Assembly (NCBI RefSeq): GCF_039555335.1
Contig: NC_092641.1
Coordinates: forward strand, 32,672,848 to 32,736,847
Origin: Amphiura filiformis
Lineage: Eukaryota > Echinodermata > Ophiuroidea > Amphilepidida > Amphiuridae
Reading direction: 5' to 3'
Length of the DNA: 64,000 nt
Positions within the stretch are counted from its first letter, which is position 1; each line of letters begins with the position of its first letter. A program made the translations under genes and the position numbers. The notes beneath the pieces were generated by a model. That model was not told the origin of the DNA. It worked only from the letters and a program-made list of their open reading frames with translations, and ran no database searches. Shown here in pieces: positions 2,735 through 43,940 of the stretch.

Positions 2735-2764
2735 TGATTTATCCGGTCATAGGCCCTCCTCTCT
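2735..2764 (-). CDS. Terminal exon of paralog 1 (30 nt, stop codon)
   Basis: Begins with the same AGAGAGGAGG core as A and B exons, after TTTTTTAG. In phase 1 it reads RGGPMTG then TAA. A good donor (ATCA|GTAAGTGTG) follows the stop, so an untranslated exon may lie downstream; I could not locate it. The paralog 2 equivalent (37393-37422) has TGA at the same codon. Confidence 0.65.
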
Positions 2765-5700
2765 CTAAAAAAATGAAGAAAAAAAGAAGCAACAAAAATA
2801 TTATTTCTTTATAATACAATATACTATGTGACCTAATGTCGTGGTTTTCTGAGACCAACCTCTAAATATTACAACAACATGAACAAGAAACAAACCAAGC
2901 AAACACATTTTCAGAGAAGAACGCCGTGTACTTTAATTCTGGCAATAAAGCTGAACTTTCGAGTTCATTAGTAACCAAAAATGATAAAATATAGTGAACG
3001 TTTGGAATCGAGTTTTTTTTGCAGAAGAAAGTGGAAAAATCGCTACGCCATGTACACGGTATGCACTTTATTTTTCTTCTTTATGAAAGTAACAAATGAT
3101 ATGTACTACATGCTACATTACATACGGCCCTGATCATTTATTCATATATCCGCCATTTTGGATTTTTGCCATTTTGTGCATTTTGAAACCAAAGATCAAT
3201 TTTTTCTTCATTTTTTAAAGTCCCCAATTAATCTGTATGCAATTACCTATCATGTGAGACACGTTAATGGCTTGGCTTCGATTTAGTTTTCTTCTTCTGA
3301 CAATTTTCACTTTACGGCCGCCATCTTGGATTTTGAGCTGAATTTTCATAAATTTTCAAGTTTTACCGGATTTTTATGCCGAAGGCGATTTTTTTCTTCA
3401 AATTTTGAAGTCGCCAAGTAATCCTTGTACAATTATCGTTCATATAGTACATGCAAATTGGTTGGCTTCGACTTAGTTATCTTTTTTTGAACTTTTTTGA
3501 ACAAGTGATCTAGCGGTCTATGTACTTTTTAATTGTATTTTTGGACTACTTTTTTGTGTTCGTAGTTTTCTTTTTTTTTCAAATTATTGTATAAAAAACA
3601 AGATAAAAAAATAATTAAAACATAGAAAAAGAGAAGCACTAATGAACTACTGCGAATTTGAAAGCTAAGCACGCGGTATTCTGAGACCAACATTTGTTTC
3701 ATTTATAATTTGTCATGTTCGGTCTTATATTTAGTGTATGTACAAGTTTTAAGAAAAGCAGACCCAGACAATTAAAATAATTATTAAATCTGCCTACCTT
3801 CGGTATCAGAAAGCATCTCTCCGGTAGGGCCTCCTCTCTCTGCAAAACATATCATAAATTATTATAAACTAAACTGTCAAGAAATCACAATACAACACCC
3901 GCTTTCTCTATTTGCTTCATATTGTAAAACAACAATAATGTAATACTATTTTAAAAAAAAACACGAAAGCATATACCAAAAATAATACTTACTGGCGCGT
4001 CCGGTAGGACCTCCTCTCTCTGAAAAAGATAAGAAATGGAAATCAAATCTATCAGCGAAATCACTATGGTACGAGAACTGTCAAGAAATCACAATGCAAC
4101 ATCCGCTCCCACTATTTTTGCTTTAGATTGAAAAACAACAATAATGTATCACTATTCAAAACAACACGAAAGCGTATAGCAAAAATGATACTTACTGGCG
4201 CGTCCGGTAGGACCTCCTCTCTCTGAAAAAGAAAAGAAATGAAAATTAAATCTATCCTCAAAATCACTATGGTACAATATAGTGGTATATTACAACAATA
4301 ACCAAGCAATCACATTTGCCAAAGTAGAACTCCGTGTACTTTTAGGCAATAAAGCCGAACGTTCGATTTGATTTATATATTTCTTCTTTTTGAAAGTAAC
4401 AAATGATATGTAGCCAAAATACGTTTTTAAAACGTTAAAAAATCGTTTCACTTTGGTTTAAGAAACGTTTCAATATTGCGTTTTAAAAACGTAAATGTGT
4501 GGAGTTTTGAATACGTTTCAATAACGTTTGCATGAAACGTTTTGATTACGTTTTTTTCACGTTAATATTACGTTTCACTTTTGTTTAAAAACCGTTTTTT
4601 ATTGCGTTTTTAAAACGTAGTTCTAAATACGTTTCAATAACGTTTGCATGACACGTTTTGAAAACGTTATCAGACCGTTTTTCAAATGCTAATAAACCGC
4701 ATCACTTTGGTAGTCCAAGTTATCATGGTTATGACGTTAACACTTCGATCTCTTGTGTAGTATATAAGACATGAAACCATGAAGAAATACATTAACCATG
4801 AAAGTAAAAGATGTACACCATGAGATAATGTATAACTCCATGTCCCCAATGTCTTCGACATCAAGACATGTTCAGCGTCCCAGTCCAGTCCTGTTGCATC
4901 GATTATTCTTGCCGGCAGCTGGCAGCATGATTCGGATAACCAAAATATGAAAGCCAACCTTAGCTAGGATATTAAATGTGACATTAAAATACATTAATGT
5001 AAATGTTTTCTGCGTTAAAATTATAAAAGTATCCTTACACTTGGAAAAAATCAATTCTACAACTCACTGAACTGAACTGAACATGTGAATTAAAACTAAA
5101 CCATATTTGGGTAAATTTATTTATTTAATAGATGCGCTATCTATTTTTCTTCCAAGTGTAAGGATACTTTTTTTCGCAGTATATAAACCAACAAGAGACT
5201 TGCAATGGGCAACTAGCGTGAATATTATATATGATTATAATCAGAAACAAATGGCACATTTATACCATGTCATGCTATTAAAATTTACAGAATTAAGAAA
5301 TAAAAGGGCCTTAATTAAAACTGAAAATGAAAACTTACCTAAATGAGTAGACCTAATGCTGTTATAGTACTTATACTTTACTCTTGGAGCCGGAACACTT
5401 ATCATTAAATACAACAAAAATACATGTAGAATTGTATCGCTTTCTCCACACCAGAATCAAATTTGAACAGCTAATATATACAACAAAAATACATGTAGAA
5501 TTGTATCGCTTTCTCCACACCAGAATCAAATTTGAACAGCTAATATATAGTTAGTAGTAGTTGAGCAGTAACCACGTATAGGCTAGTCAAGTATAAGGTC
5601 ACTGAGATCAAGGATACTAGTACTATAGTACTGTGTAGTAGTCACCATTGCTCGCCATCAGTGCAGACTAAAATCATATGTCAGTAATTCCATTAAAAAC

Positions 5701-8700
5701 GCAAATGTTTCGCCCAAAACATAGCTGCAACTTGTCTACAAAATCAAAGGCCTATACACGTTTATCTTTTGATCTATAAACATGATTAAAGGTTAGCTAG
5801 GCCTATTAAATTCCACCGTAAACAGTCAGCAATTGAGATTCACAGATATATCCGTTGATGCATGGTCAAAACGGTTACAATTTGTTACTAGTATTTCGAA
5901 ACAAACAAACCGCTCTAACCGGTTGTTAATCTTAGTCCCGGCCGGCTTGTGCTCCTTGAGTAGCGAGGAGCACAAGCCGTCTGGGACCGAGACTAACCGC
6001 CGGTTCATTATTTTACGAAATCGAGACCGTGCGTTACCATGGTTACACACCTTTTGAAAGTTGATATATAAAATAAAGCAATGTAAATTTACCGGTACTT
6101 TTTACTTTAATTTGCTTACGTTTTTTATTCATATCTGTCATCATTCATGCAAATAACGTACAGTAGGCCTAAATAAATTACAGAAAAATAAAATGCAAGT
6201 CTCTTGTTGATTCGATAGCCTACTTATTATAATAAATATTAAATAATTATTTAATATCCAGCTAATTGGTTATATAGTGGAGCCCCAGTCGAATGGAACG
6301 ATTTATGAACATTGTGATTTGAATTGCTTTTTTCGTGAGTATTTTGTCTACAATGGGTCTACGTTATTAGAACGTTTTTATAACGTTTTGGTCGAACTAT
6401 TCTGCCATCAGATAACTCGATGTTTATCAAAACGTTTTGGAAACGTGTATTTAACGTTTTAAAAAACCAAAACCAAATAAAAACCAATTCAAAACGTTTT
6501 GGAAACGTTTTGTGTTTGCTGGGATAGTACGGACTAAAACCCATAAATTTTTCACTGTATTTTGGACCATTTCGTTGTTCTTAGTTTGTTTCAGTTTTTT
6601 TTAAGCAAAATAAAAAATCATTAAAACATAGAAAAAAAAAGGAGCATTAATGCGAATAGGAAAAGCTATGCACGCGGTATTCTGACATTGACCTTTGTTT
6701 CAATTATTATATGCCATATGAAATATTATGATTAGTGTGTTAACATCTTAAGGGGTACTACACCCTGCCCAATTTTGTGCCTATTTTTTGCATTTTTCTC
6801 AAAATTATAGCGCATTGGTGACAAGTAAGATATGTATATTATAGGGGCAAGGACTACAACTACTGCACTGGAAATTTTATTTCAACACATACAACCGTTG
6901 TGGAGTTACAGTCAAAAATGAGGGAAAACCAATATTTGATCAATAAATCAATAACTACTTGCCATGAGTTGCTGATTTGTCAGTGCAGTAGTTGTAGTCC
7001 TTACCCTATAATATACATATCTTACTTGTCACCAATGCGCTATAATTTTGAGAAAAATGCAAAAATAGGCACAAAATTGGCCAGGGTGTAGTACCCCTTA
7101 ATCTACTTATATAGCAATAAACAATCGTATATACAAGCTTCACGAAAAGCAGATCCAGACAATTAAAACAATAAATAAATATGCCTACCTTCGGTATCAT
7201 AAAGCATCTCTCCGGTAGGGCCTCCTCTCTCTGCAAAACATATCATAAATCATTATAAGCTTAACTGTCAAGAAATCACAATGCAATACCCGCGTCCACT
7301 ATTTTTGCTTTGATCGTAAAACAACAAATAATGTATTACTCTTTTTAAAAAATACGAAAACATACAGCAAAATGATACTTACTGGCGCGTCCGGTAGGAC
7401 CTCCTCTCTCTGAAAAAGAAAAGAAATGGAAATTAAATTTGTAAAATTACTATGGTTACGATCTAATGTCATATTACAACGAAAAACCAAGCAATCACAT
7501 TTGCTAGAACTCAAAGCAAGATAAACAAAAATCATTAAAACATAGAAAAAAAAGGAGCCCTAATGCATTAATGCGAATATGAAAAGCTATGCACGCGGTG
7601 TTCTGACACCGACATTTGTTTCATTTATTATTTGCCATATGAAATCTTATGTTTAGTTTGTTAAGAGAGATTTTCTGAGAAATACTGATGCCATGGGGAA
7701 AAGGTGGAAGATGGGGGTCAGCAAATTTCAACCATATTTTGGCAATTTAATAAGTTTGGATAAGTGTTCATAATAATCAGTATAAAAAAATCTGCTATGC
7801 CCCTCCTGAGAAATATGGGCCCCTAAAATATGCCCCCTAACACGTATTTCCCTGACTTGTAAAATGCCGTTTTATGCCATTTTGGAATAGATGTTTGGCA
7901 CCTAAGACAAGCATCTATGAAAGTAAATTTTTCTACACATCTTCTTTCATCCTTTGTATTTATCAAAAAATATAAAACAACAAATGTTTATATTGGGATG
8001 TTCCATTTATGAACAGGGTGGGGCCCATATTTCACATTTTACAACTTTTGAAAAAAAGTGAAATATCCCTCTACTTTGTGACGTCATTGTAGGAGTTCCT
8101 CAATCTTTCTCAAATTGTTCATTACAGGAGAATACCTCTGTACATAGGTCATTTATATAATGCAATAAAAATCATGGAGACTTTTTTACTTTTCATAGAA
8201 CACAAACATGGATTTTCCCAATATGTGACATTGGTATAATGATGCTGTATATAACGCCAACATCAAATATAAGATCTTTTCACTGTAGCAGTCCCTTTTC
8301 TTGAGCCAATAGTCAGTTATTCCATTGAGGAGTAAAGAACCACATTTAAGAATGCAAATCAAGTACAGGGGTAGGGGTTTCTCTTTTACAGCATATTGGT
8401 AAAATCGCCAGTAGATAATGCTCCTTGAATATGAGCCCCTCTCATGTCACAAGCTCGTATTCATACATGTTAGTGGTATTATGATTATTATGAAAATCAC
8501 AAGCTCCTATTCTGATTCTTAATCATTTCACATGCAGCAGTACTTAAGCTATAGGAACTAGACCTAGTAGGACCCCATACCCCAAAGTACTAAATCCTAA
8601 TAACCTGGGGTGGAACTTAATGCTAGGAGTGGGCTATAAATGGGACTTGTTTTGTTTTGCTTCGGGATAAGGTTGTTTGTATGTTCTATTTAACCTAGGC

Positions 8701-11700
8701 CTATCTCAACATGAAATTACAAAATGTTAAGCCTGGGTTTCAAAAAAGAATGTGCACAGCAAAAATCATCCCCTGAAAATCACATTTTTTAGCCATAACT
8801 TTGTCATTTTTGGGTCTTTTTACCAGGTTCTGGTGTCTAGTCTATGTTTTTTTTGGTCAATCAATCTATTTATGCAGTTAGAAGAAGTCTCACATCTTCA
8901 TGTGTTGAGTTACGACCATTTCTGACCCAATGCACCTTTTTTACCCAAATTTTGAACCAGGCCCATAGACCTCATACTTAAATTACAGAAAAAGCTAGAC
9001 AACAGGTTAAAACTTACATAACACTATAAATTGGAAAAACGAAATAGACACACAACATACGTTACATCAAGTAAAAAATGTAGATTTTGCACTGCAGACT
9101 TTTATACAATTTTGATAGTTTAATGGATTTTATTGTATTTACATTTTTAGCAATTTCTTGCATTACAAAAGTTTGTATTACACTTTATATTACTGATTAT
9201 ATGAGGCTTCTTTAATTGTGAGCTAGGATAATTCAAAGAGAAGGCAGTTTCCACTAATTTTAAAGCAAATTTCCCCAGTAACATTTGACAAATTCCCTCA
9301 TCATGTGAACATGACCTAAACATTTTACCCGGAATAGCCAGTATCCGGGATAATAAATTCTCTTTTCCTGATCTCTTTTTTACACTGTCAGTATGGGAGA
9401 GCTCCAACTAAGCCATGTGTATTGACCCTTGACCTTCTACGGTGACAGTGGTATGTTAAAATAAGATGAGGGAAAGAAAATTTGTTATCCCCAATACTGG
9501 CTATTTGGGAGTAAAATTGTAAGGACATCTCCACAATATGAGGTAAAATTTACCAAAAAAACCCATAATATTAATGGCTACTTGTTATGTTGCTATGAAA
9601 ACTGATAAGTGTCACAGGCACAATCTCAAACTGCTGCATGACAGTGTCCTAGATATCATCATCAGTGCCATGTGGTCGCTGCTAACTTTCATCTCCGGTA
9701 TCAGTACCAACGCGCATCAGGTTTTGTCCCCCGCGTTTCATCCCCATTATCATCAAGGTAAAACCCAATATACCAACTTTTGTTGGCTCCCTCATCCCAG
9801 ATGACAGCAACAACATTTTTCTGTGACCTATGACCTTTGAATTTTGGGCAGTTTGACCCCAAATTTTGAGCAATTTGTTGCATTAAAAAAGTTTGTATTA
9901 CACTTAATGAGTATATTATTGATATATGGATTCTTTAATTGTAAGTTACATGTATTAGGAGATTTCAAAGGAAGGCAATTGCCATGGCAATGGCCATTTA
10001 TACTAATATTTAAGCGAATTTCCCCAGTAATCTATGATCTTTGAATTTTGGGCAGTTTGACCCCAAATTGACCCATTTTCTTCATTTTGAGCAATTTGTT
10101 GCATTTAAAAAGTTTGTATTACACTTTATAAGTATACTATTGATATACATGGATTCTTTAATTTTAAGCTACATGTATTGGAGATTTCAAAGAGAAGGCA
10201 GTTGTCATGGCAATGGCCATTTATACTAATATTTAAGCGAATTTCCCCAGTAACATTAAGGAAATTCGATTTCAAAAGAAAAGTATAGGCCCTCTCCGAA
10301 TAACTGCTAACAGAGCCCGTTTTAGTACTAATTTCGATGTTGAAATAGCAGCATCACTTTCTAACATTTGTTAATAAAAACTGAACCTTACCTGTAAAGA
10401 TAGACAAAATTGGAGCTTAAGTGAAAATTTAGGCTTTATTTAATACAGCTAAAAATAAAGAAAACTATTGTCATGCGTGGTGGTAGAATTGCCGCTTAAA
10501 AATGTTGATTTTTACATGCTTTTCACTATGATGGAGAGGTTATTTGGTGGTCTGCACCCCCTTAATAGACAGAGGTCACTCAGATGAAAGAGAGCAGTTT
10601 ACTAGTATATTGACCATCAAAGGATCCTCAATACAAACCCCAAAATCCATATAATGTGTCAGCATTTTTGGTATTTCAAAAATCGAGAATCATAGATACA
10701 TAAGCGTTTTTATGTTTAACACAATAACACCCCTACTTGATCAATGTAGTGTTCCAATATATTATTGTCTTTGTTGTTAACTACATAGTGATAGAAAATA
10801 ATTATTGTAGGGCCCTACCTGCGTTCCTTGGAAGAAAAAGGTAATATTCATTTGAGGGTGCATAAAGCAAGATTATTTTTAAATCAGCACAAACAGAATT
10901 TTAGTATTGACCCGGGGTACTGAACCCCTTTATAGAATAGTCCTGTTCTATAAGCATTTATCCAACACAATTTAGGCCCCAATTTATTATGTAATAGTTT
11001 TGTTGATGTTGTTTACTTCTGAAAAAAACCCTTTTCATCAAATTTCATTTTTAAACTTAGAAAAATCACCGTACCTGAGTTTAGCATGAAAATATCGCAA
11101 TTTTGCACTTTTCTGAAAAAGAGCATAAAGTAAGATGTGCTCATTTTAAAACGGAAAAAGTCTCCACGATTTTTATTTGCTCAATTGTTCAACCTATATC
11201 TACTTTATCCAACAAGTAAATAACTTTGACAAAAATATTGAGGAACTCTCACAATCATCTTGCAAACTTTGCTTCAAAATTAGTATTTTGCACTTTTCTG
11301 AAAAAGAGCATAAAGTAAGATGTGCTCATTTTAAAACGGAAAAAGTCTCCACGATTTTTATTTGCTCAATTGATCAACCTATATCTACTTTATCCAACAA
11401 GTAAATAACTTTGACAAAAATATTGAGGAACTCTCACAATCATCTTGCAAACTTTGCTTCAAAATTAGGATTTTTCACATTTACACAATTGCTGAAAAGG
11501 CCATTACACCCCTCTCTGAAAATGGAACAACCCAAATGTTGTACAAAGAATTTTTAATTGTTATGTCGAGACAAAATGTGTATTATTACTGTGAAGTATA
11601 AATAAAATGTCTGCAGATGCGCGTTATTACGTGGCCCTAATCAAAAGTTAGTGCACATTTCAAAGTTTTTGTGTCTGAGAAGACAATCATGGGGGTCAAT

Positions 11701-14700
11701 TTGAGGGGGTCCAGTATCTCCCAGTGGGGGTCCTCAAAATTTTTAATACCTCCACTGTAAATACTCATGGACACATGTTTGATTGACAAAATATGAACAA
11801 AATTTGCTGACCCCCATCTTCCACCTACCATCTGAGTCTATCGGATAAACCCTCTTAACACCTTAATCTACTCGTATAGCAATACACAATCGTATATACA
11901 AGCTTCGCGAAAAGCAGATGCAGACAATTAAAACAATTAATAAATCTGCCTACCTTCGGTATCAGAAAGCATCTCTCCAGTTGGGCCTCCTCTCTCTGCA
12001 AAACATATTATAAATTATTATGAACTTAACTGTCAAGAAATCACAATACAATACCCGTTTCCACTATTTTTGCTTCATATCGTAAAACAACAAATAATGT
12101 AATACTATTCAGAAAACACGAAAGCATATAGCGAAAATTATACTTACTGGCGCGTCCGGTAGGACCTCCTCTCTCTGAAAAAGAAAGGAAATGAAAATTA
12201 AATCTATCATCAAATCAATAACTAAGCAATCACATTTGCCAGAGTAGAACTCCGTGTACTTTTAGGCAATAAAGCTGAACTTTGGATTTGATTTTGTCAC
12301 CAAGAATAATATTTCTTCTTTTTGAAAGTACTAAATGATATGTAATACGGACTAAAACCCTAAATGTTTTATTGTATTTTGGATTATTTTGTTCTTCTTA
12401 TTTTTTTTTTTCTAATTATTGTAAAAGGAAAATGCAAGATAGATAAAATCATTAAATCACAGAAAAAAACTGCATTAATGCGAATTTTGAAAGTGGTATT
12501 CTGACACCAACATTTGTTTCATTTAGTATTTGCCATATGTAATGTTATGTTTAGTGTGTTAACATCTTAATCTACTCGTATAGCAATAAACAACCGTATA
12601 TACAAGCTTCACGAAAAGCAGACCCAGACAATTACAACAATTAATAAATATGCCTACCTTCGGTATCATAAAGCATCTCTCCGGTAGGGCCTCCTCTCTC
12701 TGCAAAACATATCATAAATTATTATAAACTTAACTGTCAAGAAATCACAATGCAATACCCGCGTCCACTATTTTTGCTTTGATCGTAAAACAACAAATAA
12801 TGTATTACTCTTTTTAAAAAATACGAAAACATACAGCAAAATGATACTTACTGGCGCGTCCGGTAGGACCTCCTCTCTCTGAAAAAGAAAAGAAATGAAA
12901 ATTAGATTTGTAAAATTACTATGGTTACGATCTAATGTCATATTACAACGAAAAATCAAGCAATCACATTTGCTAGAACTCAAAGCAAGATAAACAAAAA
13001 TCATTAAAACATAGAAAAAAAGGAGCCCTAATGCATTAATGCGAATATGAAAAGCTATGCACGCGGTATTCTGACACCGACATTTGTTTCATTTATTATT
13101 TGCCATATGAAATCTTATGTTTAGTTTGTTAACACCTTAATCTACTCGTATAGCAATACACAATCGTATATACAAGCTTCGCGAAAAGCAGATGCAGACA
13201 ATTAAAACAATTAATAAATCTGCCTACCTTCGGTATCAGAAAGCATCTCTCCGGTTGGGAGAGAAATCAAGAAATCACAATACAATACCCGTTTCCACTA
13301 TTTTCGCTTCATATCGTAAAACAACAAATAATCTATTACTCTTTAAAAAAATACGGAAACGTGTAGCAAAAAAGATACTTACTGGCGCGTCCGGTAGGAC
13401 CTCCTCTCTCTGAAAAAAAGAAAAGAAATGGAAATGAAATCTATTAACAAAATCACTATGGTTACGATCTAATGTCATACAACAACAAAAAACAAGCAAT
13501 CACATTTGCTAGAGTAGAACTCAAAGCAAAATAAAAAGAAAATTTAAAACCTAGAAAAAAGGAGCCCTAATACATTAATGCGAATTTGGAAAGTGGTATT
13601 CTGACACCAACATTTGTATCATTTATTATTTGCCATACGTCATCTTATGTTTAGTGTTTTAACATATTTATCTACTCGTATAGCAATAAACAATCGTATA
13701 TATACAAGCTTTACAAAAAGCAGATCCAGACAATTAAAATAATTAATAAATCTGCATACCTTCGGTATCAGAAAGCATCTCTCCGGTTGGGCCTCCTCTC
13801 TCTGCAAAATAGATCATAAATTATTATAAACTTAACTGTCAAGAAATCACAATTTTTGCTTCTTATCGTAAAACAACAAATAATATATTACTCTTAAAAA
13901 ATACGGAAACATATAGCAAAAATGATACTTACTGGCGCGTCCGGTAGGACCACCTCTCTCTGAAAAAAGAAAAGAAATGTAAATTAAATATGCAAAAGTA
14001 CTATGGTTACGATCGAAAAACTAAGCAATCACATTTGCCAGAGTAGAACTCAAAGCCAGATACAACAAATCATTACAACATAGACAAAGGGAGCCCTAAT
14101 TCATCAATGCGAATTTGAAAAGCTATGCACGCGATATTCTGACACCAACATTTGTTTCATTTATTATTTGCCATGTGCAATCTTATGTTTAGTGTGTTAA
14201 CATCTTAATCTACTCGTATAGCAATAAACAATCGTATACTAGTATATACAAGCTTTACAAAAAGCAGATCCAGACAATAAATATAATTAATAAATTTGCA
14301 TACCTTCGGTATCAGAAAGCATCTCTCCGGTAGGGCCGCCTCTCTCTGCAAAATAGATCATAAATTATTATAAACTTAACTGTAAAGAAATCACAATACA
14401 ATACACGCTTCCACTATTTTTGCTTCATATCGTAAAACAACAAATAATGTATTTCTCTTAAAAAAATACGGAAACATAATAGCAAAAATTATACTTACTG
14501 GCGCGTCCGGTAGGACCTCCTCTCTCTGAAAAAAAGAAAAGAAATGGAAATTATATACACTATGGTTACGATCGAAAAAAATAAGCAATCACATTTGCCA
14601 GAGTAGAACTCAAAGCCAGATACAAAAAATCATTACAACATAGAAAAAAGGCGCCCTAATGCATCAATGCGAATTTGAAAAGCTATGCACACGATATTCT

Positions 14701-17700
14701 GACACCAACATTTGTTTCATTTATTATTTGCCATATGCAATCTTATGTTTAGTGTGTTAATATCTTAAACTACTCGAACAGCACGGTAGGCATCTTTAGC
14801 ATTCATAATGCCTTGGTGGCAGTGGTTCGAACCCTGGTGAAAATTTTAGTATTTTTCATTTTTTTACTAATGCGCTGTGCCGTTTTTCAAACACGCCCCT
14901 GAATGAAATTGATGGGCAAGTACCCTTAACTGTCAAGAAATCACAGTGTAATACCCAATTCCTCTATTTTTGCTTCATATCGTAAAACAACAAATAATGT
15001 ATTACTCTTTTAAAACATATAGCAAAAATGATACTTACTGGCGCGTCCGGTAGGACCTCCTCTCTCTGAAAAAAAGAAAAGAAATATAAGTTAAATCTGC
15101 AAAATTATTATGGTTACGATTTAATGTCATATTATAACGAAAAACCAAGCAATCACATTTGCCAGAGTATTATAGAACTCAAAGCAAGCTTACGGCTCTC
15201 TAAAATAATGATTGAAAAAAAGAAGCAACAAAATTATTATATCTTAAAGGTGAACCTCATTGAAAATAAAGTTATATATTTATGGAAAGCTTATGATGTC
15301 AGGATACTAAAAATATTTTTTTCCTTTTTTTTTTTTTTTGATGGCCAATAAAGCTGAAAAATTTAAAAAAAGAATGAATTTTTGGTCTTTTTTAATTCGC
15401 CCCAATAGCACCCAAATCAATCGTCTATGACCTTGGGAATGCTCGTGACGTAAGCTCAGGGTTCGCAGTCACGTGATCCTACTCGGAAACATGTAAACAA
15501 GACTTGCTTCCTGTACTTTGCAAGCTGCCCGGCAAGTCTGATTTTCACAATAAAGCTTGAAATTAGAGGATTCTTTAAGTTGCTGATTCCTTCTATATAT
15601 ATTAAAAATAATAGAATTATTGTCAACGCGTAAATTTTCCGTAAATTTTTGACAAAATCAGTCATAACTGGCTGGGTATATTGAGTTTGAATTTCGCGCT
15701 GGGATCAATTCCATGCGCAAATGCTTGCTGCTACCGTTCAAGTCATGGACTGATAAACATGATCGAATAACAAATTAAATAACTTGTTTGTGACATTCCC
15801 TATTCTTGATTCATTTTAAAATATCTGATTTTTAAAAATATCGTCTTGTAGTAATCAAAACATTAATAAAAAAAACGCCGATTCATCAAATCCAGCCCAT
15901 ATATAAAGGTTTTCATATTTAGCGCATTGCGGTAATACATTCTTTCCACACAATCACGATTGAAAGAAACATATACTTTATTATAAAATAAATACAATGT
16001 AGGCTTAGTAGACCGTTATTTGATAGAATTCTGAAATCTGAATAAAATTAAAATATTGTCACTTGTGTCACGATTCTTTAATGATAGTACAATCAGTGTA
16101 CTGAAAAAGTGAAACATTCATGTTTTATGGATTACCGAACACGATGCGTAAATTGCTGCTAAAGAAATTGCAGGGAGCCGATCAAGGTGGATATGCACAA
16201 ACACAGTGACTCGCTTCGTCCTCCGGTAGCACTTGCGCAGTGTGTGTTTCAGCAGATTTGATCAATCGTTCCCTTATATTTGGAACATTTACAGGAATAA
16301 ATTTTGCTGATGAAGTAGCAATAAGTGTGAATCAGAATGTGAATATGAAATCGGTCATTTTGTCCTGAGACTAGTATACCTGTTCAGGTATGCTTGTCTC
16401 AGATTTTGTCTGCAAGTACAGTACAGTCGCGGATACCGAACACTCGGCGACTGAGACTCAGTCAGTCACTGAGTTCATCCCGTACGTATCTACGAGCTCG
16501 CCTATCATACATGACCGGTTGTAAAGTTAAGAAATAATTTAAAAATCCTGTACATGTACCTTATTCTATTCCTTCATTTTCTCATTGCGATAAGTTCATC
16601 TCAACTTGGTGTGACGATCTGAACTGGTAGCACTGGGAGTTATTTTTTGCAATCTGTTCTCATTCCGGTTCTTCGGCGAATCTTCGCTTTTCGTGCTTTA
16701 CTGTAATATTCCCTATGCATATCGTGGATGGCTTGGCCTATCCCAAATCACCCCGGCCAGCACTTTTCCCATTTTTGAATCCACACACTATATTCAGGAA
16801 CTTCATTCTTGATTTGATCATGATGTTTCCTTCATGTTATTCTTATTTTATTGAAGATATTTTTCATGTAAATTAAGTCGACCATGACAGAGTTCGTGCA
16901 TTGGCCCGGTGCATGTCACAGTAATGCATGGACATTGTGTTTACAATCAAACCCGGAAGTAACTGTGCCCCTGCGCTGACGTCATTAACGAAAGCGCCCA
17001 ATTTGAACGATTTCGTTTTATAATTTAAGGGGTGCCAATATCCAATCTTTGTATGGAGATTATGTCTAGCCTGGTACGCTAGGCAAATAAAAAATATTCT
17101 TTTCTGCTTCATGATATCATAAGCTTTCCATTGATATATAACTTTATTTTCAATGAGGTTCACCTTTAATACAATATACTCTGTGACCTAATGTCGTGGT
17201 TTTATTACAACAACGTGAACAAGAAACAAACCAAGCAAACACATTTGTCAGGGAAGAACGCCGTGTACTTTCTGGCAATAAAGCTGAACTTTTGATTTCA
17301 TTAGTGACCAAAAATGATAAAATATTGTGAAGGCTTTGAATTGGGTTTTTCGCAGAAGAAAGTGGAAAATCGCTACGCCATGTAAACATTATACGCTTTA
17401 TTTTTCTTCTTTATGAAAGTAACAAACGATATGTAGCCTACTGCATGCTATATAACCCCTAATTTTTTAATTGTATTTTTGACTACTTTTTTGTGTTCGT
17501 AATTGTCTGTATAATTTAAAACATAGAAAAGAGAAGCCCTAATGAACTACTGCGAATTTGACAAGCTAAGCACGCGCTATTCTGAGACCGACATGTTCGG
17601 TCTTATATTTAGTGTATGTACAAGCATCAAGAAAAGCAGACCCAAATAATTAAAGCAATAATTATAAATCTGCCTACCTTCGGTATCAGAAAGCATCTCT

Positions 17701-20700
17701 CCGGTAGGGCCTCCTCTCTCTGCAAAATATATTGTAAATTATTATAAGTTTAACTGTCAAGAAATCACAATACAATACCCGCTTCCACTATTTTCGCTTC
17801 ATATCGTAAAACAACAAATAATCTATTACTCTTTAAAAAAATACGGAAACGTGTAGCAAAAAAGATACTTACTGGCGCGTCCGGTAGGACCTCCTCTCTC
17901 TGAAAAAAAGAAAAGAAATGGAAATGAAATCTATTTACAAAATCACTATGATTACGATCTAATGTCATACAACAACAAAAAACAAGCAATCACATTTGCT
18001 AGAGTAGAACTCAAAGCAAAATAAAAAGAAAATTTAAAACCTAGAAAAAAGGAGCCCTAATACATTAATGCGAATTTGGAAAGTGGTATTCTGACACCAA
18101 CATTTGAAGAGCTTATTTCCAAACCGTGTTAAGTCCACCCACCTTCAAAATTGAGATTTTGATGAAAATGGGTAGTGAGTAACTAGGGCTATCCAGCAAT
18201 GTGTGTGTGTTTTTCCAAAATTAGTCAAGTCCCGAAATATTGACACACAAAGTATCTATTTTTTTCCAAAACATGTTAAGTCCAATCCAGTTTGGTAGCA
18301 AACTGTGTTAAGTCCACGAACAATGCCCTTGTGGGCAGCTTGTAGGTAGCACGGCATAGGGCTTCCAATAGTTAATCGCCCAAGTCCTGCCTTGCTTTGC
18401 GTCTTCGTTCTTGTTTGGTCCCGAGACTAGTATACCTGAATTTGGTCTGCATAAAAAGTTGTTGTTGTTGTTTTTAATAATTAGTAGGCCTAGTTTGTAT
18501 GGGATTTCTTAAATATTTGATAGATACCTCCAGAAAGACATGAAAAGGGTGGGAAGGGGTAGAGGGAGAGGTTGTGAGGGTAGAATTAATGTTAGAGGAT
18601 GGTGGTAGAGTTAGTTTTTGAATATTATTTTGTATGATTATCAAAATGTGCTACTAAATTCAAGGTATTATTTTAAAGTTAAAGGTATAAAAAAAACTTA
18701 GGACTTAAAGACTTAAAACTTACGGCTGTCAATATGAGATTAGGGTGGCAGCATGGGGAAGGGGGAATTGTGATAACTGATAATGTGATAAAACAAGTGG
18801 GTATTTCGGGTCATCACTTATTGTCAGTGAAATGATGTTTATTCAATTCTGAGAAATGCAATACAAATCAGTTTTGAATTTTGAACTATTTTAAACATTG
18901 AATTTTGGTAAAAAATGGTTGGGAGGAGGGGGTTCGAGATGCAAGGTGTTTTGTGGCAAAATTGTGTTTTATAGTAGAGGGAATCACATTTTGTATGTTT
19001 TAAGACTATAGTTTGAGAAAAATATGGTTAGTTCTGTGTTACAGATGCTATGTTTTGTGTCAAAATGTGTTAAGTCCATGCTATTTTTAAAACAAATTAA
19101 TTCATTAAAAAAAATCAAAAGTCTCGAGATTTTAACGTTTCATGTTTTTATGGTCCTATATATGTCACCTTCACTTCACTGTGATTTTATAGAAATCGAA
19201 CTTTATTTCATTGCCATAAAGAAAATTCCTGATTTTCTTCAAAGTGAATCTTGTGGACTTAACACGGTTTGGAAATAAGCTCTTCATTTGTATCATTTAT
19301 TATTTGCCATACGTCATCTTATGTTTAGTGTTTTAACATCTTTATCTACTCGTATAGCAATAAACAATCGTATATGTGACCGTACAGCACGAATGAGCCG
19401 TAAATGTCCTCAATTGTATTCTGAGTTACAGTGTAAAATGGGCATGAAGGTCGTATTCATAGGTACCTCAATTTGGTGCTACGTGTACCTCATTTAATGA
19501 GATACACGTAGCACCAAATTGAAATACCTATGAATATGACCTTCATGCCCATTTTACACTAACTCAGAATACAAATGAGGACATTTACGGCTCATTCGTG
19601 CTGTACGGTCACATATATACAAGCTTTACAAAAAGCAGATCCAGACAATTAAAATAATTAATAAATCTGCATACCTTCGGTATCAGAAAGCATCTCTCCG
19701 GTTGGGCCTCCTCTCTCTGCAAAATAGATCATAAATTATTATAAACTTAACTGTCAAGAAATCACAATGCAATACACGCTTCCACTATTTTTGCTTCATA
19801 TCGTAAAACAACAAATAATATATTACTCTTTAAAAATACGGAAACATATAGCAAAAATGATACTTACTGGCGCGTCCGGTAGGACCACTCTCTCTGAAAA
19901 AAAGAAAAGAAATGTAAATTAAATATGCAAAAGTACTATGGTTACGATCGAAAAACTAAGCAATCACATTTGCCAGAGTAGAACTCGAAGCCAGATACAA
20001 AAAAATCATTACAACATAGACAAAGGGAGCCCTAATGCATCAATGCGAATGCTTCATATCGTAAAACAACAAATAATGTATTTCTCTTAAAAAAATACGG
20101 AAACATAATAGCAAAAATTATACTTACTGGCGCGTCCGGTAGGACCTCCTCTCTCTGAAAAAAGAAAAGAAATGGAGATCGAAAAAAATAAGCAATCACA
20201 TTTGCCAGAGTAGAACTCAAAGCCAGATACAAAAAAATCATTACAACATAGAAAAAAGGAGCCCTAATGCATCAATGCGAATTTGAAAAGCTATGCACAC
20301 GATATTCTGACACCAACATTTGTTTCATTTATTATTTGCCATATGCAATCTTATGTTTAGTGTGTTAATATCTTAAACTACTCGAACAGCAATAAACAAT
20401 CGTATATAAGCTTCGCGAAAAGCAGATGCAGACAATTAAAACAATTTATAAATCTGCCTACCTTCGGTATCAGAAAGCATCTCTCCGGTAGGGCCTCCTC
20501 TCTCTGCAAAACATATCATAAATTATTATAAACTTAACTGTCAAGAAATCACAATGCAATACCCACTTCCACTATTTTTTTTCATATTGTAAAACTCTGC
20601 AAAACATATCATGAATTATTATAAACTTAAATGTCAAGAAATCACAAATCAATGCTTCCATATTTTTGCTTCATATCGTAAAACAACAAATAATGTATTA

Positions 20701-23483
20701 CCTTTAAAAGAAATACGGAAACATATAGCAAATATGATACTTACTGGCGCGTCCGGTAGGACCTCCTCTCTCTGAAAACGAAAAGAAATGGAAGTTAAAT
20801 CTGCAAAATTACTATGGATACGATCTAATGTCATATTATAATGAAAAAGCAAGCAATTACATTTGCCAGCGCAGAACTCCGCATACTTTCAAGCAATAAA
20901 ACTGAGCTTTCGATTTAATATAGTCACCAAATAATCAAACGGTAAAGAAATCACAATGTAACACCCCAACAAACACAAAACGTTTCCAACATCATTCACA
21001 AAAGGTTAGAAAATATTGTCAGAAAACGTTTTAATGTCGGGTTATATAAAGCATTTGTTGATAACCTACTGCAAGTATTCTAACATAATGTTATTAAGTA
21101 TTGACAAAATATTTGGCAAAAATGTTTGCAAAAATATTTTACTATAACATTTTAAAAACATTGTTTTATATATTGTTGTTGTGTGTTTTCATACAACATT
21201 TTAAAACCTTCCATGACCTTTATATAACCCAATATTTGATGTTATTAAGGGGTTGTTTGGAATGACAGGTGAGTCAGGGGTCAAAAACAAAATTTTTACC
21301 TTTTTGACCTCAGCACATGTGTATGTATGATCTGCCATACAAAAATTAAAAAAACAATACCTCAAAGTATCATTTTTAATGTTTTTTGTCATAATCACGC
21401 TTTTCTACAAATTTCATCTGTTTGTACCGGGGCGTGTCTGTTGCCAGGTAGGCCTACATGACAGCATAGACACACGTTACAACCTTGAATAATAATACAG
21501 AATGACGTTATATTCTTCTTAACCTATCTTAGAACTGCCTATTATTTCAATTGTTATACTGTTCTGGTTGGTTTATTGCATATACTGTATAGAAATTATG
21601 CAATATGACGTCGAGCATGACAGAGTCATCTTCATTCAAATAAAATTCAGGTACCCGTAAGGTACCACGGAGCAATTCGCACGATAATACAATAAAACAG
21701 ATGAAAGGTATGAATGGTTGTGGAATCGAATTGCAGACCTGTCCCTCTGTCACCTTAGAACTGCATCTCGTAGGCAATGGTAGGTAATAAACCAACCGGA
21801 ACGATATAACAATTGAAATAACAGCATGTCTTGGTCTCAATTTAAGATGTGCAATTTGGACACACCTACTCGTTGGCTGATTTATACTTCAACAGTTCCT
21901 CAAAGTGATATCAGAAAAGCCACTATCTCATTGTTCATTGGCCCGCAGTATGCGCTCGCCCTGGGGCACTCAACTTTAGAATTGATGGGTATATGTGCCT
22001 ACATTTTGTACAAGCGTCGCGAAGTAGGCGCATATCAGTACAAAACGTTGGGGTTTTTTTTTTATTAAAAAAGGGTCAATTATGTACAATCAAAATGAAA
22101 AAGGGGTCATTGGGTATAATATTTTGAAAACTGAAGGTGCCTGGTCGTCGGGTATAGTCGGCTTCAAAAGAGGGGCATATATTGACAGGCACATACCGTC
22201 ACCTCTAAAGTTGATGCCCCCCGGGTGCTCGCATTATATTTTGTTCATGGCTCGGCTTTTAAAACTCCCACACATCACAATACGGCTATTGAAAAGTGTA
22301 TAGAATAGCTAATGATAGACTGATCCCTGCGATTAGTCGCGGACCCGAGCGACAATATAGTAAACACATCGAGTTTATAACACAAGTGACAGTAGTCGTG
22401 AATTATGGAGGGTTTCATTGAACTTCTACCAGCAAAATATGGAATAATACTAACACAAGACACCAATCGAGATGATGATACCAGCCATAATGGAAGGCTT
22501 GTATTTGACCTTCTTATGAATCCAATTTCGTGGCGAGAAGTTAAAAAGGTAATGTATATTTCAAGAAATTTGGGTTCAAAAATTCCGTATCAGCTCGTAT
22601 CATCAATTCCGTAAATATGGCGTATAGAGGCACAACTTGACAATAAACTGAACTATTTAAACGTAAAGGATGCACTGGATACACATAAATTTGTGTTTCC
22701 TTGCTGGCGGAATAGTTGTAAAACTCTTTTTTGTCAAAAAAGTTGGACAATTTATGAATTATGATTGGCAAAATAGCGAAAGGAAATAGACTTTTCCAAC
22801 CATGTAAAACTACACTGGGTTGTTGACATGGTCGACATACATTAAGACATACGCATGTTCCTAAAGTAGGAGGTAAGTACTATAATTAATTGTTTAAAGT
22901 GCTCAACATACCAGCAAAAAGTCATAGGGTCATCAGAGTACAGGGACTTTGTGAAATACTGGGTACAAAAATAAAGTGCGTGAGCCGATATGCAACATCA
23001 AATATAAAAGCCGATTTACATAATTTCCCATGACCTTACAGAAGTGATCGTGCTCAAATATAAAACTATAGAGTTTGGTCCTTGATATGCACCATCAATT
23101 GTGTACTTGTGATCAATATTGCTAGGCAAACAATCACAGCAAACATGCCAAAATCCTCCCATTTCTCCTCCATTTACACACATACAAACCCATCCCTTAA
23201 AACGTTTTGATCTAAACCAAACCCCAAAATATAACATATTTAAAACATTTTAAAAACATTATTGTGTTTGCTGGGTACCTCTTTCCCATTCGCTGGAGGT
23301 GTTATAAAAATTACTCAATCGAGGGGTTCGAGGGGTTCGTTATATTTCTTCATATTCAGGTGAAAACAATAACCAATTTATTCATCGTGAAAGGAGCTTA
23401 GAAGCAAAGAGTACAAACTTACCATCGTGACCTGCTGCGTAGGCCAGAACACTAACCAGCAGAAGAACAAACAAAGTCTTCAT
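2735..23483 (-). CDS. Mini-exon repeat-peptide precursor, paralog 1 (gene model)
   Basis: I see a signal-peptide exon, then 21 intact tiny exons and a terminal exon, all flanked by good splice signals. Two exon types alternate: A (27 nt, RGGPTGRA) and B (42 nt, RGGPTGEMLSDTE). Every intact exon is a multiple of three and phase 1, matching the signal exon, which ends GAT G|GTAAGT. Skipping the two damaged exons gives about 262 residues. Each A exon ends in A and the next begins AG-AGA, so the splice makes Lys-Arg inside R-A-K-R, a furin-type site; B exons end in G and give Glu instead. The inferred product is a secreted polyprotein releasing many short peptides, as in neuropeptide or antimicrobial precursors; a repetitive structural protein is the alternative. 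Silent changes between copies (GGA to GGT or GGC, CCT to CCA, ACC to ACT) support this frame. I do not recognise the family. Confidence 0.72.
3140..3490. repeat. Two diverged tandem copies of a 190-base unit
   Basis: Each copy runs from CGCCATTTTGGATTTT or CGCCATCTTGGATTTT to a GGTTGGCTTCGACTTAGTT-like end. Copies at about 3140-3310 and 3315-3490. Confidence 0.55.
3798..3839 (-). CDS. B exon 9 (42 nt), last before the terminal exon
   Basis: Canonical B exon with donor GAAG|GTAGGCAG. It is followed by an intron of about 1 kb holding two diverged copies of a 190-base repeat (3140-3490). Confidence 0.7.
3993..4019 (-). CDS. A exon 12 (27 nt)
   Basis: Canonical, acceptor TTTTTCAG, donor A|GTAAGTATT. 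Tandem duplicate of the exon and intron unit at 4196-4222. Confidence 0.7.
4196..4222 (-). CDS. A exon 11 (27 nt)
   Basis: Canonical A exon only about 180 bases upstream of another A exon, with no B exon or trace of one between them. Confidence 0.7.
5007..5184. mobile_element. Palindromic MITE, AAGTATCCTTACACTTGG family
   Basis: Inverted ends contain AAGTATCCTTACACTTGGAA and its complement, next to TTCTGCG or CGCAGTATA. The same family occurs full-length at 49234-49861. Confidence 0.55.
5411..5548. repeat. Exact two-copy tandem repeat, 69-base unit
   Basis: Copies 5411-5479 and 5480-5548 appear identical base for base, so the duplication is recent. Confidence 0.8.
5908..6008. repeat. Hairpin with about 45-base imperfect arms
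   Basis: GGCTTGTGCTCC at 5944-5955 pairs with GGAGCACAAGCC at 5969-5980 around a 13-base loop. Pairing continues outward with mismatches through TTAGTCCCGG and CTGGGACCGAGACTAA. Confidence 0.6.
6752..7097. mobile_element. TTAA MITE with long inverted repeats (piggyBac-like)
   Basis: Ends GGGGTACTACACCCTG and complement, with about 110-base arms, flanked by TTAA duplications (6748-6751 and 7098-7101). The empty site survives in other array introns as ACATCTTAATCTACTC (about 12560). Confidence 0.75.
7189..7230 (-). CDS. B exon 8 (42 nt, Ser-to-Tyr variant)
   Basis: EMLYDTE variant shared with 12658-12699. The downstream intron holds a TTAA MITE (6752-7097) and the element at about 4411-6527. 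Confidence 0.7.
7383..7409 (-). CDS. A exon 10 (27 nt)
   Basis: Canonical. Its upstream intron holds the 4.2-kb TTAA element 7665-11854. Confidence 0.7.
9840..10250. repeat. Two tandem copies of a 200-base unit
   Basis: Each copy runs from TTTGACCCCAAATT through AGTTTGTATTACACTT to TAAGCGAATTTCCCCAGTAA (9840-10035 and 10040-10250). A more diverged third copy lies at about 9110-9290. Confidence 0.6.
11097..11466. repeat. Two-copy tandem repeat, 185-base unit
   Basis: Copies at about 11097-11281 and 11282-11466 differ at very few positions (for example TTGTTCAACC and TTGATCAACC). Confidence 0.75.
11954..11995 (-). CDS. B exon 7 (42 nt, two silent changes)
   Basis: CCT ACC is changed to CCA ACT, both silent in phase 1 (Pro-Thr), while the next frame would change Leu-Pro to Gln-Leu. 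This is the best single exon for deciding the reading frame. Confidence 0.7.
12148..12174 (-). CDS. A exon 9 (27 nt)
   Basis: Canonical A exon with acceptor TTTTTCAG and donor A|GTAAGTATA. Confidence 0.7.
12658..12699 (-). CDS. B exon 6 (42 nt, Ser-to-Tyr variant)
   Basis: TCT is changed to TAT, so the peptide reads EMLYDTE. The same variant occurs at 7189-7230, its duplicate. This is the only amino-acid change among the intact B exons of paralog 1. Confidence 0.7.
12852..12878 (-). CDS. A exon 8 (27 nt)
   Basis: Canonical, in a segment (about 12570-13130) near-identical to 7100-7660 apart from a few bases. Confidence 0.7.
13228..13259 (-). pseudogene. B exon truncated at its acceptor
   Basis: The donor half is intact (CCAACCGGAGAG through GAAG|GTAGGC), but the first ten bases and the acceptor have been removed by a deletion of about 60 bases. 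That deletion joins CCCAAC directly to intron sequence (TCTCTC, AATCAAGAAATCAC). It cannot be spliced in the usual way and is probably skipped, leaving two A exons adjacent in the mRNA. Confidence 0.65.
13383..13409 (-). CDS. A exon 7 (27 nt)
   Basis: Canonical; partner of 17873-17899. The 200 bases around it differ from that copy at only a few sites, so this duplication is young. Confidence 0.7.
13760..13801 (-). CDS. B exon 5 (42 nt)
   Basis: Silent CCT-to-CCA change and donor GTATGCAG. Partner of 19675-19716 in the duplicated block. Confidence 0.7.
13933..13959 (-). CDS. A exon 6 (27 nt, silent GGT)
   Basis: Carries GGA to GGT, silent in phase 1. This is the intact counterpart of the frameshifted exon at 19868-19893. 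Confidence 0.7.
14304..14345 (-). CDS. B exon 4 (42 nt, silent GGC)
   Basis: Second codon GGA is changed to GGC, silent in the phase-1 frame but Glu to Ala in the next frame. Donor GTATGCAA. The matching exon is deleted from the other block copy near 20040-20055. Confidence 0.68.
14499..14525 (-). CDS. A exon 5 (27 nt)
   Basis: Canonical A exon, parent or sister of 20128-20154. With no B exon before it, the model releases a short GGPTGRA-type peptide here. Confidence 0.7.
14783..14925 (+). mobile_element. tRNA-like SINE fragment replacing a B exon
   Basis: Contains a pol III B-box-like GGTTCGAACCC at about 14824-14834. Compared with 20340-20560, the segment replaces the end of one intron plus the expected B exon, so insertion and deletion happened together. 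Confidence 0.45.
15039..15065 (-). CDS. A exon 4 (27 nt)
   Basis: Canonical A exon directly followed by another A exon. The B exon expected between them has been replaced by a tRNA-like repeat insertion and deletion at about 14783-14925. Confidence 0.7.
15194..15199 (-). pseudogene. Fossil terminal exon inside the array
   Basis: The flank 15200-15245 matches the bases just upstream of the real terminal exon (2765-2805), including the AGAAGCAACAAAA stretch. The exon itself has been deleted to AGAGCC followed by GTAAGC. This marks an old array end whose stop codon is gone, so the arrays on either side are now continuous. Whether a 6-nt exon is ever used is unknown. Confidence 0.5.
15247..17166. 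mobile_element. 1.9-kb TA-flanked TIR element in the array
   Basis: About 55-base inverted ends starting AAGGTGAACCTCATTGAAAA, flanked by TA (15245-15246 and 17167-17168). The uninterrupted intron is seen at 2795-2825 (TTTATAATACAATATACT). No transposase frame; Tc1/mariner-like by target site only. Confidence 0.65.
17678..17719 (-). CDS. B exon 3 (42 nt)
   Basis: Canonical B exon with donor GTAGGCAG. Its downstream intron (17720 down to 17167) matches the intron between the last B exon (3798-3839) and the terminal exon, as if an array end once lay here. Confidence 0.7.
17873..17899 (-). CDS. A exon 3 (27 nt)
   Basis: Canonical. It lies in a segment (about 17750-18106) almost identical to 13260-13615, so it is the recent copy of the A exon at 13383-13409. 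Confidence 0.7.
18107..19284. mobile_element. 1.18-kb TIR element with 6-bp CATTTG duplication
   Basis: Inverted ends AAGAGCTTATTTCCAAACCG and complement; flanks CATTTG at 18101-18106 and 19285-19290. The duplicated segment at about 13610 has the empty site (CAACATTTGTATC). TTAAGTCC motifs recur inside. Superfamily not recognised. Confidence 0.75.
19376..19612. mobile_element. Near-perfect palindromic MITE (237 bp)
   Basis: Two arms of about 117 bases starting GTGACCGTACAGCACGAATG meet around TTTAATGA, with a handful of mismatches. The empty site ATCGTATATATACAAGC exists at about 13695. It lies in the paralog 1 intron between B exon 2 and A exon 3. Confidence 0.8.
19675..19716 (-). CDS. B exon 2 (42 nt)
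   Basis: B exon with a silent CCT-to-CCA change and donor GTATGCAG in place of GTAGGCAG. It shares both with the B exon at 13760-13801, its block-duplicate partner. Confidence 0.7.
19868..19893 (-). pseudogene. A exon with one base lost (26 nt, frameshift)
   Basis: Copy of the A exon at 13933-13959: both carry the GGA-to-GGT change, but here one further base is missing, leaving AGAGAGTGGTCC. Splice sites look intact, so inclusion would shift the frame of everything downstream by one base. The shifted frame stays open through all downstream A and B exons until the terminal exon. It is either skipped, an allele defect, an assembly error, or a frame switch. Confidence 0.65.
20128..20154 (-). 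CDS. A exon 2 (27 nt)
   Basis: Canonical A exon, the duplicate of the A exon at 14499-14525. The flanking intron shares the distinctive CATAATAGCAAAAATTATAC stretch with that copy. Confidence 0.7.
20462..20503 (-). CDS. B exon 1 (42 nt)
   Basis: Canonical B exon, RGGPTGEMLSDTE plus G, with acceptor TTTTGCAG and donor GAAG|GTAGGCAG. Between it and A exon 1, at 20590-20640, a partly duplicated piece of intron repeats the AAAACATATCAT and TGTCAAGAAATCAC motifs. Confidence 0.72.
20745..20771 (-). CDS. A exon 1 (27 nt)
   Basis: First mini-exon after the signal exon. Canonical sequence with acceptor TTTTCAG and donor A|GTAAGTATC. Joined to the signal exon it reads E-RGGPTGRA. Its long upstream intron is mostly a TIR element (about 20965-23275); without it the signal exon would lie only about 340 bases upstream. 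Confidence 0.72.
21542..21822. mobile_element. Nested 280-bp TIR element
   Basis: TTATTTCAATTGTTATACTG at the left pairs with the right end, and GGTTGGTTTAT pairs with ATAAACCAACC. Confidence 0.6.
22405..22552 (+). other. Possible captured first exon inside a transposon
   Basis: From ATG the frame reads MEGFIELLPAKYGIILTQ, an Asp-rich stretch, then GRLVFDLLMNPISWREVKK and stops at a good donor (AAG|GTAATG at 22553). The composition is protein-like, unlike surrounding frames. It may be an exon of a host gene picked up by the element, or the first exon of the element's own gene. I do not recognise it and see no second exon. Confidence 0.3.
23423..23483 (-). CDS. Signal-peptide exon of paralog 1
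   Basis: The 61-nt coding part encodes 20 residues plus one base: a basic start (MKT), a run of Leu and Val (LFVLLLVSVLAY), then small residues AAG and HD. This is a standard secretory signal, probably cut after the AYA or YAA region. It ends GAT G|GTAAGT, a strong phase-1 donor. The ATG follows GTGACAGTGAAA, which is shared with paralog 2. The start is chosen because it opens the hydrophobic segment and is conserved between the paralogs. Confidence 0.82.
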
Positions 23484-37392: not shown

Positions 37393-37422
37393 TGATTCAG
37401 CCGGTCACGTGACCTCCTCTCT
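37393..37422 (-). CDS. Terminal exon of paralog 2 (30 nt, stop codon)
   Basis: Phase 1 reads RGGHVTG then TGA, aligned codon for codon with RGGPMTG-TAA in 2735-2764. Same length, same post-stop ATCA|GTAAGTGTG donor. The stop position is kept while the stop codon differs. Confidence 0.62.
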
Positions 37423-38422
37423 CTAATAAGATAGAACAAGAAACCAAATTAATATATCTATATACAATACTCTGTTACCTAATGTCGTATTACGATTAGA
37501 AACGAGCTGTCCAATCGTAGTGTGGTATTCATCGGAATATAAGGGTCGATTCATACTCTATGTATTCGACGTTATTCAATATGTTCGAATTAATTCTTTA
37601 ATTCGAACGAGTGATTGTTGATGGCAGCTCAATTGTATTTAAATTCAAATATTTTTTTTCAATTTTACGTCAACAAACATTAAGAACCAGAAAGCTTTAA
37701 CTCACTCTTTTGCTATTTTGAGATTTTGGTACAAACATTATCACCGACACCCACTTCCAATCATAAAGATTTTAATAACACTATCAACAACTTCATAATT
37801 GCAGATATAGCACAATTCTATTTGGGCACATCTCAATAGAGCAAATTGCAGTTTTGCAAAAAGTCTCAACTCTGAGCAAACATGTTAAGGCTTTCTGAGA
37901 AGAGAAAATCCGGAGGGCAAAGGAAAAGAAAATGGGCAAGGAGCCACATTTCCACCAAAATGCACCCTGATCATGGGCCAAAATAGTGTAAAATACAATT
38001 TTTTTACGCGCGCACATCATCTCTTTTAAAAACAAAACCGGTATATGTATTGTATGATGCAACTGCAATTTTGTTCGTCTGTACCCCGAAATCGAAATTT
38101 TACTTTGCCCCCCCCCGACCAAGAAAGCTGGCTACACCCCTGAAGGTCAAAATTTTCAACTGATCATTGGCTTTTTCTAATCATTTGCCATAAAATGTGT
38201 ATTATATCGGGAATTTAAAAAAAATTGTTTTGATATCAGAAGGACGTTTCTCGTATTTAGAATGCAATTTGGTGTCTGATGTGCTCCCGTGTACCATAAA
38301 AATAATGCGCAAACGTTGCTATCCGATTCATTAAAGACACTTAAGTACCCATCCAATGATTACTTTATTTGGTAGTTTAGGTTGAGTGTCTTTATGAAAT
38401 ATATAGCAAAAATTAGAATTAC

Positions 38423-38449
38423 TGTCGCGTCCGGTAGGACCTCCTCTCT
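38423..38449 (-). CDS. A-like exon, 27 nt
   Basis: Reads RGGPTGRD plus A; the Ala codon of the standard A exon is changed to Asp (GCC to GAC). The donor is weakened to GTAATT. Splicing to the terminal exon would give R-D-K-R, still a furin-type site. Confidence 0.55.
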
Positions 38450-38612
38450 CTGCAAAAAAAATGGAAATTAAATCTATCAAATAAATCCCTATAGTACGAT
38501 CCAATAATTATTATTGTTACAACCAAAAACCAAGCAATCGCATTTACCAGAATAGAATTCCGTGTCCTTTTAGGAAATGAAGCTGAACTTTCAATTTACG
38601 TTACCTCTCTCT

Positions 38613-43095: not shown

Positions 43096-43108
43096 TACGG
43101 TGAAGTAT

Positions 43109-43939: not shown

Positions 43940-43940
43940 A

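Follow-up and report, generated by a model that had tools for sequence, protein, structure and literature searches.

A tandem pair of genes made of very short phase-1 exons in Amphiura filiformis, and their possible role as secreted multi-copy peptide precursors

Structure of the two genes

The window, a 64,000-nucleotide stretch of the Amphiura filiformis genome (NC_092641.1, positions 32,672,848 to 32,736,847), contains two tandem genes on the minus strand, referred to here as gene A (46268..37393) and gene B (23483..2735). Gene B opens with a 61-nt signal-peptide exon and closes with a 30-nt stop exon; between them lie 12 intact 27-nt and nine intact 42-nt exons. When chained, these exons form a single open frame of 262 aa that ends with TAA and contains no cysteine. 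The features of gene B are listed below in window positions and, where no other basis is given, were placed by the exon chain.

23423..23483, minus strand: signal-peptide exon, coding part 61 nt, ATG at 23483, MKTLFVLLLVSVLAYAAGHD + G; donor GTAAGT, 5' region conserved with gene A
20745..20771, minus strand: 27-nt exon 1, RGGPTGRA(K)
20462..20503, minus strand: 42-nt exon 1, RGGPTGEMLSDTE(E)
20128..20154, minus strand: 27-nt exon 2
19868..19893, minus strand: decayed 27-type exon, 26 nt, intact splice sites, frame-shifting if used
19675..19716, minus strand: 42-nt exon 2
17873..17899, minus strand: 27-nt exon 3
17678..17719, minus strand: 42-nt exon 3
15039..15065, minus strand: 27-nt exon 4
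14499..14525, minus strand: 27-nt exon 5
14304..14345, minus strand: 42-nt exon 4
13933..13959, minus strand: 27-nt exon 6, one silent change (exon chain and variable columns)
13760..13801, minus strand: 42-nt exon 5
13383..13409, minus strand: 27-nt exon 7
13228..13259, minus strand: remnant of a 42-type exon without 5' part and acceptor (profile match)
12852..12878, minus strand: 27-nt exon 8
12658..12699, minus strand: 42-nt exon 6, S to Y
12148..12174, minus strand: 27-nt exon 9
11954..11995, minus strand: 42-nt exon 7
7383..7409, minus strand: 27-nt exon 10
7189..7230, minus strand: 42-nt exon 8, S to Y
4196..4222, minus strand: 27-nt exon 11
3993..4019, minus strand: 27-nt exon 12
3798..3839, minus strand: 42-nt exon 9
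2735..2764, minus strand: stop exon, 30 nt, RGGPMTG-stop (TAA), donor retained

The 27-nt unit encodes RGGPTGRA plus one base and the 42-nt unit RGGPTGEML[S/Y]DTE plus one base. Each of the 21 intact exons has ..CAG directly before it and GTA.. directly after it, and all are in phase 1, with two bases preceding the first whole codon. The order of the exons (a for 27 nt, b for 42 nt) is abababaababaabababaab, which includes three a-a doublets. Introns leading from a 27-nt exon to the next 42-nt exon measure 131-153 nt in seven of the nine cases, the other two being 241 nt and 411 nt long, and the 411-nt intron spans the 26-nt copy. All other introns are between 176 and 4544 nt long. The stop exon is a modified 30-nt cassette in which the donor is still present.

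The first-pass annotation had described 12 intact 27-nt and nine intact 42-nt exons, each with its own acceptor and donor, on one strand between a signal-peptide exon and a stop exon. This observation is confirmed, with every exon recovered at its place and strand and the chain in frame from the ATG at 23483 to the end of the stop exon at 2735. The exons had also been called alternating, which is true of their overall order and not of the three doublets. Preservation of length modulo 3, attributed to all of them, holds for the 21 counted exons and breaks down in the further 26-nt copy, both splice sites of which are intact. Near 13259 the 42-type exon has lost its acceptor. Profile searches recover the intact copies at E 1.4e-26 to 3.6e-38, although these E-values express likeness only, the profiles having been made from the same copies. 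Judged by eye, the signal exon encodes a hydrophobic N-terminus that ends in AYA. The product, read in its one coding frame, is probably a secreted precursor, as had been proposed.

The family extends past the coordinates first noted, to gene A, whose features are as follows (exon chain; for the signal-peptide exon also alignment to gene B).

46199..46268, minus strand: signal-peptide exon, coding part 70 nt, MKTLSVLLFIGVLAYAAAHGDVI + G
41236..41280, minus strand: 45-nt exon, REGPKREMLIDTEG
40642..40653, minus strand: 12-nt exon, gives G-R-R-T-K|R
40448..40489, minus strand: 42-nt exon, RGGPTGEMLSDNA
39851..39895, minus strand: 45-nt exon, RKGPKREMLIDTER
39253..39264, minus strand: 12-nt exon, gives G-R-R-T-K|R
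39069..39110, minus strand: 42-nt exon, in-frame TAG
38746..38757, minus strand: 12-nt exon, gives E-R-R-I-K|R
38423..38449, minus strand: 27-nt exon, RGGPTGRD(K), donor GTAATT
37393..37422, minus strand: stop exon, 30 nt, RGGHVTG-stop (TGA), stop position as in gene B

Downstream of its signal exon, gene A thus carries cassettes of 45, 12, 42, 45, 12, 42, 12 and 27 nt, and then a 30-nt stop exon. Three of the four 27-type exons have shrunk to 12 nt (15 nt shorter), with loss of the GGPTG core. The position of the stop is common to both genes, the codon being TGA in gene A and TAA in gene B. If the 42-nt cassette with the in-frame TAG were used, the product would end at 82 residues, and gene A is possibly either in decay or the source of a shorter product. 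The gene also contains an internal duplication, about 41840-40450 and 40410-39070 (minus strand, shift ~1.4 kb), in which the 45-12-42 set occurs twice; the TAG sits in the second 42-nt copy. Cassette remnants at 42010-41970 and 38640-38590 (minus strand) have kept the acceptor and lost most of the exon body, with only AGAGAG, followed by GTAACG, left at 38640-38590.

Within gene B, block 13132-12566 is 97.7% identical to 7664-7097, and block 14783-12982 is 82.1% identical to 14223-12431; on these alignments, parts of gene B have been duplicated at differing ages. Since the intact cassettes all keep the frame, nothing in the reading frame limits the gain or loss of copies, and gain, loss or skipping of exons would alter the number of small peptides produced. 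Such in-frame gain and loss had been put forward in the first-pass annotation, and it is borne out by the first, near-identical pair of blocks and by the in-frame 12-nt versions in gene A. Tandem repeats also lie inside gene B introns, at 11100-11482 (185 nt, 2.1 copies, 97%) and 5409-5549 (69 nt, 2 copies, 100%). Three inverted repeats in the window (19371-19617, 6785-7065 and 36519-36845), the first two within gene B introns, are 90-100% complementary, and we take them to be MITE-like hairpins.

Conservation of exons and flanks

As the copies are near-identical in DNA, copy number alone proves only duplication, and the test required is a comparison of exons with their flanks. This was made on gene B only, and there on the 21 intact exons, with the 26-nt copy and the remnants set aside. 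With gap-aware alignment, pairwise divergence in the 27-nt set (12 copies) is 0.0062 for exons vs 0.117 for flanks, and in the 42-nt set (nine copies) 0.0317 vs 0.125. These values are preferred to cruder flank figures (up to 0.26; 0.22-0.23), which may be inflated by shifted windows. Invariant columns make up 26/27 of the exon and 61/165 of the flanks in the 27-nt set, and 38/42 and 87/182 in the 42-nt set. The Fisher P values for this comparison of exons with flanks (1.8e-9 and 1.2e-7) serve only as guides because the copies are not independent. Exon bases off consensus number 1 of 324 and 7 of 378; at the intron rate of the alignment used, 13-14%, there should be 43 and 53. Misalignment may inflate this expectation somewhat, and the gap-aware pairwise figures agree in direction.

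At codon positions 1+2 divergence is 0.000 in the 27-nt exons and 0.014 in the 42-nt exons, and at four-fold sites it is 0.024 (7 sites) and 0.118 (8 sites), respectively. Five exon columns vary. Four of them fall on third positions in the phase-1 frame and are silent; the fifth is the Ser/Tyr difference, the single amino-acid variant among the 21 exons, found in two of the nine 42-nt exons. The codon-position values of the 42-nt exons show the pattern of selection on the protein, their silent sites being close to neutral. Across gene B the likeness of exons outlasts the divergence of introns, which indicates that selection, and not recent duplication alone, maintains the exons. An additional constraint on silent sites, connected with splicing, is hinted at in the 27-nt exon (four-fold 0.024, P 0.003) and finds no support in the 42-nt exon (0.118, P 0.14), both P values being relative to multiple-alignment flank columns (0.204, 0.209), which set a less strict standard than the pairwise flank values of 0.117 and 0.125.

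Several other readings of the array were considered and set aside. A simple non-coding satellite is ruled out by exons far more conserved than their flanks and by variation at silent positions, and a gene on the opposite strand is ruled out, by eye, from splice signals and a frame that lie on the minus strand. The phase 0 frame is open in both cassettes (REEVLPDAP, REEALPERCFLIPK), but in it the four silent columns become second codon positions and amino-acid-changing. The phase 2 frame meets a stop within the 42-nt cassette.

The signal-exon regions of the two genes (46936-46219 in gene A, 24164-23434 in gene B) are 71% identical over 776 columns, and the conserved parts of this alignment include a stretch with ATAAATA and another immediately 5' of the ATG. 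The two signal exons share 14 of 20 residues and differ in 11 of 20 codons (5 silent, 6 amino-acid-changing). Estimates of dN and dS are 0.15 and 1.04 by NG86 and 0.19 and 0.83 by LWL85, with no value from YN00. The resulting dN/dS of ~0.14 (NG86) to 0.23 (LWL85) is support and not proof, since only twenty codons are compared.

Seams, putative cleavage and rival explanations

A 27-nt gene B exon ends in A and the next exon starts AG AGA, giving the seam AAG AGA, or Lys-Arg; every such seam reads R-A-K|R. A 42-nt exon ends in G and its seam reads E-E-R (Glu-Arg). The gene B precursor contains 12 K-R pairs, and these are the 12 seams after the 27-nt exons. The furin consensus is R-x-K/R-R. At the level of sequence, the R-A-K|R seam fits this furin/prohormone-convertase consensus and the E-E-R seam does not. 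It counts against a role in cleavage that splice-site sequence in part dictates the Lys. In gene A, R-x-K-R is kept in all four 27-type exons, with x being T, T, I and D, and the two 45-nt exons have a K-R inside the exon, away from the seam. Fixed residues at the three positions read by convertases, with a free one between them, are the best evidence for the putative cleavage, a weight to be set against a sample of four exons from one paralogue, two of them derived from a recent internal duplication, and against the additional K-R pairs that lie off the seams in the 45-nt exons of gene A.

The exon-like units, the frame, the protein-level selection, the second gene and the positions of the K-R sites can all be read directly from the DNA. 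We consider it reasonably probable that the two tandem genes encode a secreted multi-copy peptide precursor cleaved at the K-R seams. Following transcription and splicing of the full chain, a signal peptide would precede the products of two related kinds of tiny exon, each duplicated in tandem, and the 26-nt copy, having good splice sites, would have to be skipped to avoid a frame shift. After secretion a convertase would cut after each 27-nt exon and the K-R would be trimmed off. Conceptual splitting of gene B at K-R gives eight 21-residue and three 7-residue peptides plus the two ends, and the peptides released would be GGPTGEML[S/Y]DTEERGGPTGRA (eight copies, of which six are GGPTGEMLSDTEERGGPTGRA and two have Tyr) and GGPTGRA (three copies), presumably acting as a secreted effector or signal. 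More tentatively, processing might be encoded in the seam, where a final A of an exon would complete a furin site with any following cassette and a final G would not. The splicing choice between two exon types with a common core would then set which peptides are cut out, and exon number would act as a rapidly evolving dose. Gene A would represent a further step, with cassettes of 12 nt that hold hardly anything beyond the cleavage site.

A structural or adhesive secreted protein of low complexity, left uncut and with basic residues serving for charge or cross-linking, is an unlikely alternative to such a peptide precursor. It would have a model in tropoelastin, a structural protein and not a cleaved peptide precursor, in which short exon types alternate, phase is uniform and exons are skipped without loss of frame; the likeness is one of description and not of sequence. 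Gly/Pro/Thr-rich repeats, two alternating modules and a cysteine-free frame of 262 aa would suit this explanation, under which protein length would follow exon number. It is opposed by the presence of R-x-K-R at 12 of 12 gene B and 4 of 4 gene A 27-type seams, with x varying in gene A, and by its absence from the nine seams of 42-nt gene B exons.

It is rather improbable that the genes encode a secreted immune or host-interface protein, diversified by shuffling of exons and by alternative splicing in the way proposed for the micro-exon genes of schistosomes. The symmetrical tiny exons, the probable signal peptide and the block duplications of unlike age are compatible with this idea. However, a single amino-acid variant among 21 cassettes is not, because with cassettes that hardly vary in protein, splicing would alter number and order more than sequence. 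That the array is duplicated intron-exon DNA of a non-functional gene, as one frame-shifted and one acceptor-less copy, partial remnants and the premature TAG in a gene A exon might suggest, is very improbable given the rarity of off-consensus exon bases in gene B.

If correct, the precursor interpretation would make this an orphan gene for secreted peptides, with one boundary serving exon duplication, splicing and proteolytic processing alike. The evolution of peptide dose through exon gain and loss could be tested directly on the array.

Comparison with known systems

Protein searches, in a database of uncertain eukaryote coverage, found no homologue: for the 262-aa form none of the 7999 best candidates reached E 0.1, and for a 74-aa short form none of 1545 candidates reached E 1. 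Pfam had no family for the short form and NCBIfam a single match, far below cut-off, and a search of the 45-aa repeat against solved structures gave one match (E 0.7), taken as chance. Exact DNA patterns were found 0 and 0 times in viral and prokaryote contigs. Searches of the window gave no Rfam family and no tRNA. Of its 21 ORFs with 110 aa or more, Pfam covered 20 (all except 53997-54347) and returned only a sub-threshold tyrosinase match. Elsewhere in the window, an ORF piece at 1126-1554 (minus strand) matches three proteins at 58-61% identity, which carry the label PF28514.1 in the database; a Pfam scan of P0001 gave no family. This piece and that at 45-674 (minus strand) resemble a Penelope-like retroelement.

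Among the literature matches listed, no seam-coded cleavage pattern was met and no title was relevant to GGPTG, and 'GGP' is absent from the available main text of an ophiuroid neuropeptide paper (PMC5627052). The locust SG-SASP precursor is, according to the accessible text of its description, a salivary orphan sequence with a signal peptide and many peptide copies split by Lys-Arg (PMC5533153). It resembles gene B in having a signal peptide and a repeated peptide separated by Lys-Arg. By eye its peptide is unlike that of gene B, and the same text describes no exon layout of the gene B kind (PMC5533153). Precursors with K-R repeats need not be neuropeptides, and such repeats alone are no proof of a regulatory peptide, as that portion of the source makes clear (PMC5533153). 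In gene B, too, no feature marks the product as neural.

The first-pass annotation knew of no family with this layout, a view that has to be corrected: by analogy the layout has precedents, on the text available for each, in the caerulein and magainin skin-peptide precursor genes of Xenopus laevis (PMC3731216, PMC3899252) and the schistosome micro-exon genes (PMC10526429). Tandem-repeated peptide exons, as in the Xenopus family, are also present here. Gene B differs in combining two exon types (27 and 42 nt), in holding 21 intact copies within a single gene, and in exon likeness that outlasts intron divergence. Its resemblance to the frog genes is one of layout.

As far as the consulted part of the source extends, the micro-exon genes of Schistosoma mansoni encode secreted proteins and have many very short exons with lengths mostly divisible by three and long introns; there are 10 to 20 short exons, the vast majority of 15 bp (PMC10526429). 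Genes of such short exons are, in the same text, difficult for automatic annotation (PMC10526429), and for that reason similar genes may be missed elsewhere. Many short exons divisible by three and a putatively secreted product are shared with gene B. Tandemly repeated 81-base exons have reportedly been found in S. mansoni, going by the title of one study. In contrast to the schistosome micro-exon genes, the exons of gene B are copies of each other, and those of 27 nt have convertase-like sites at their seams.
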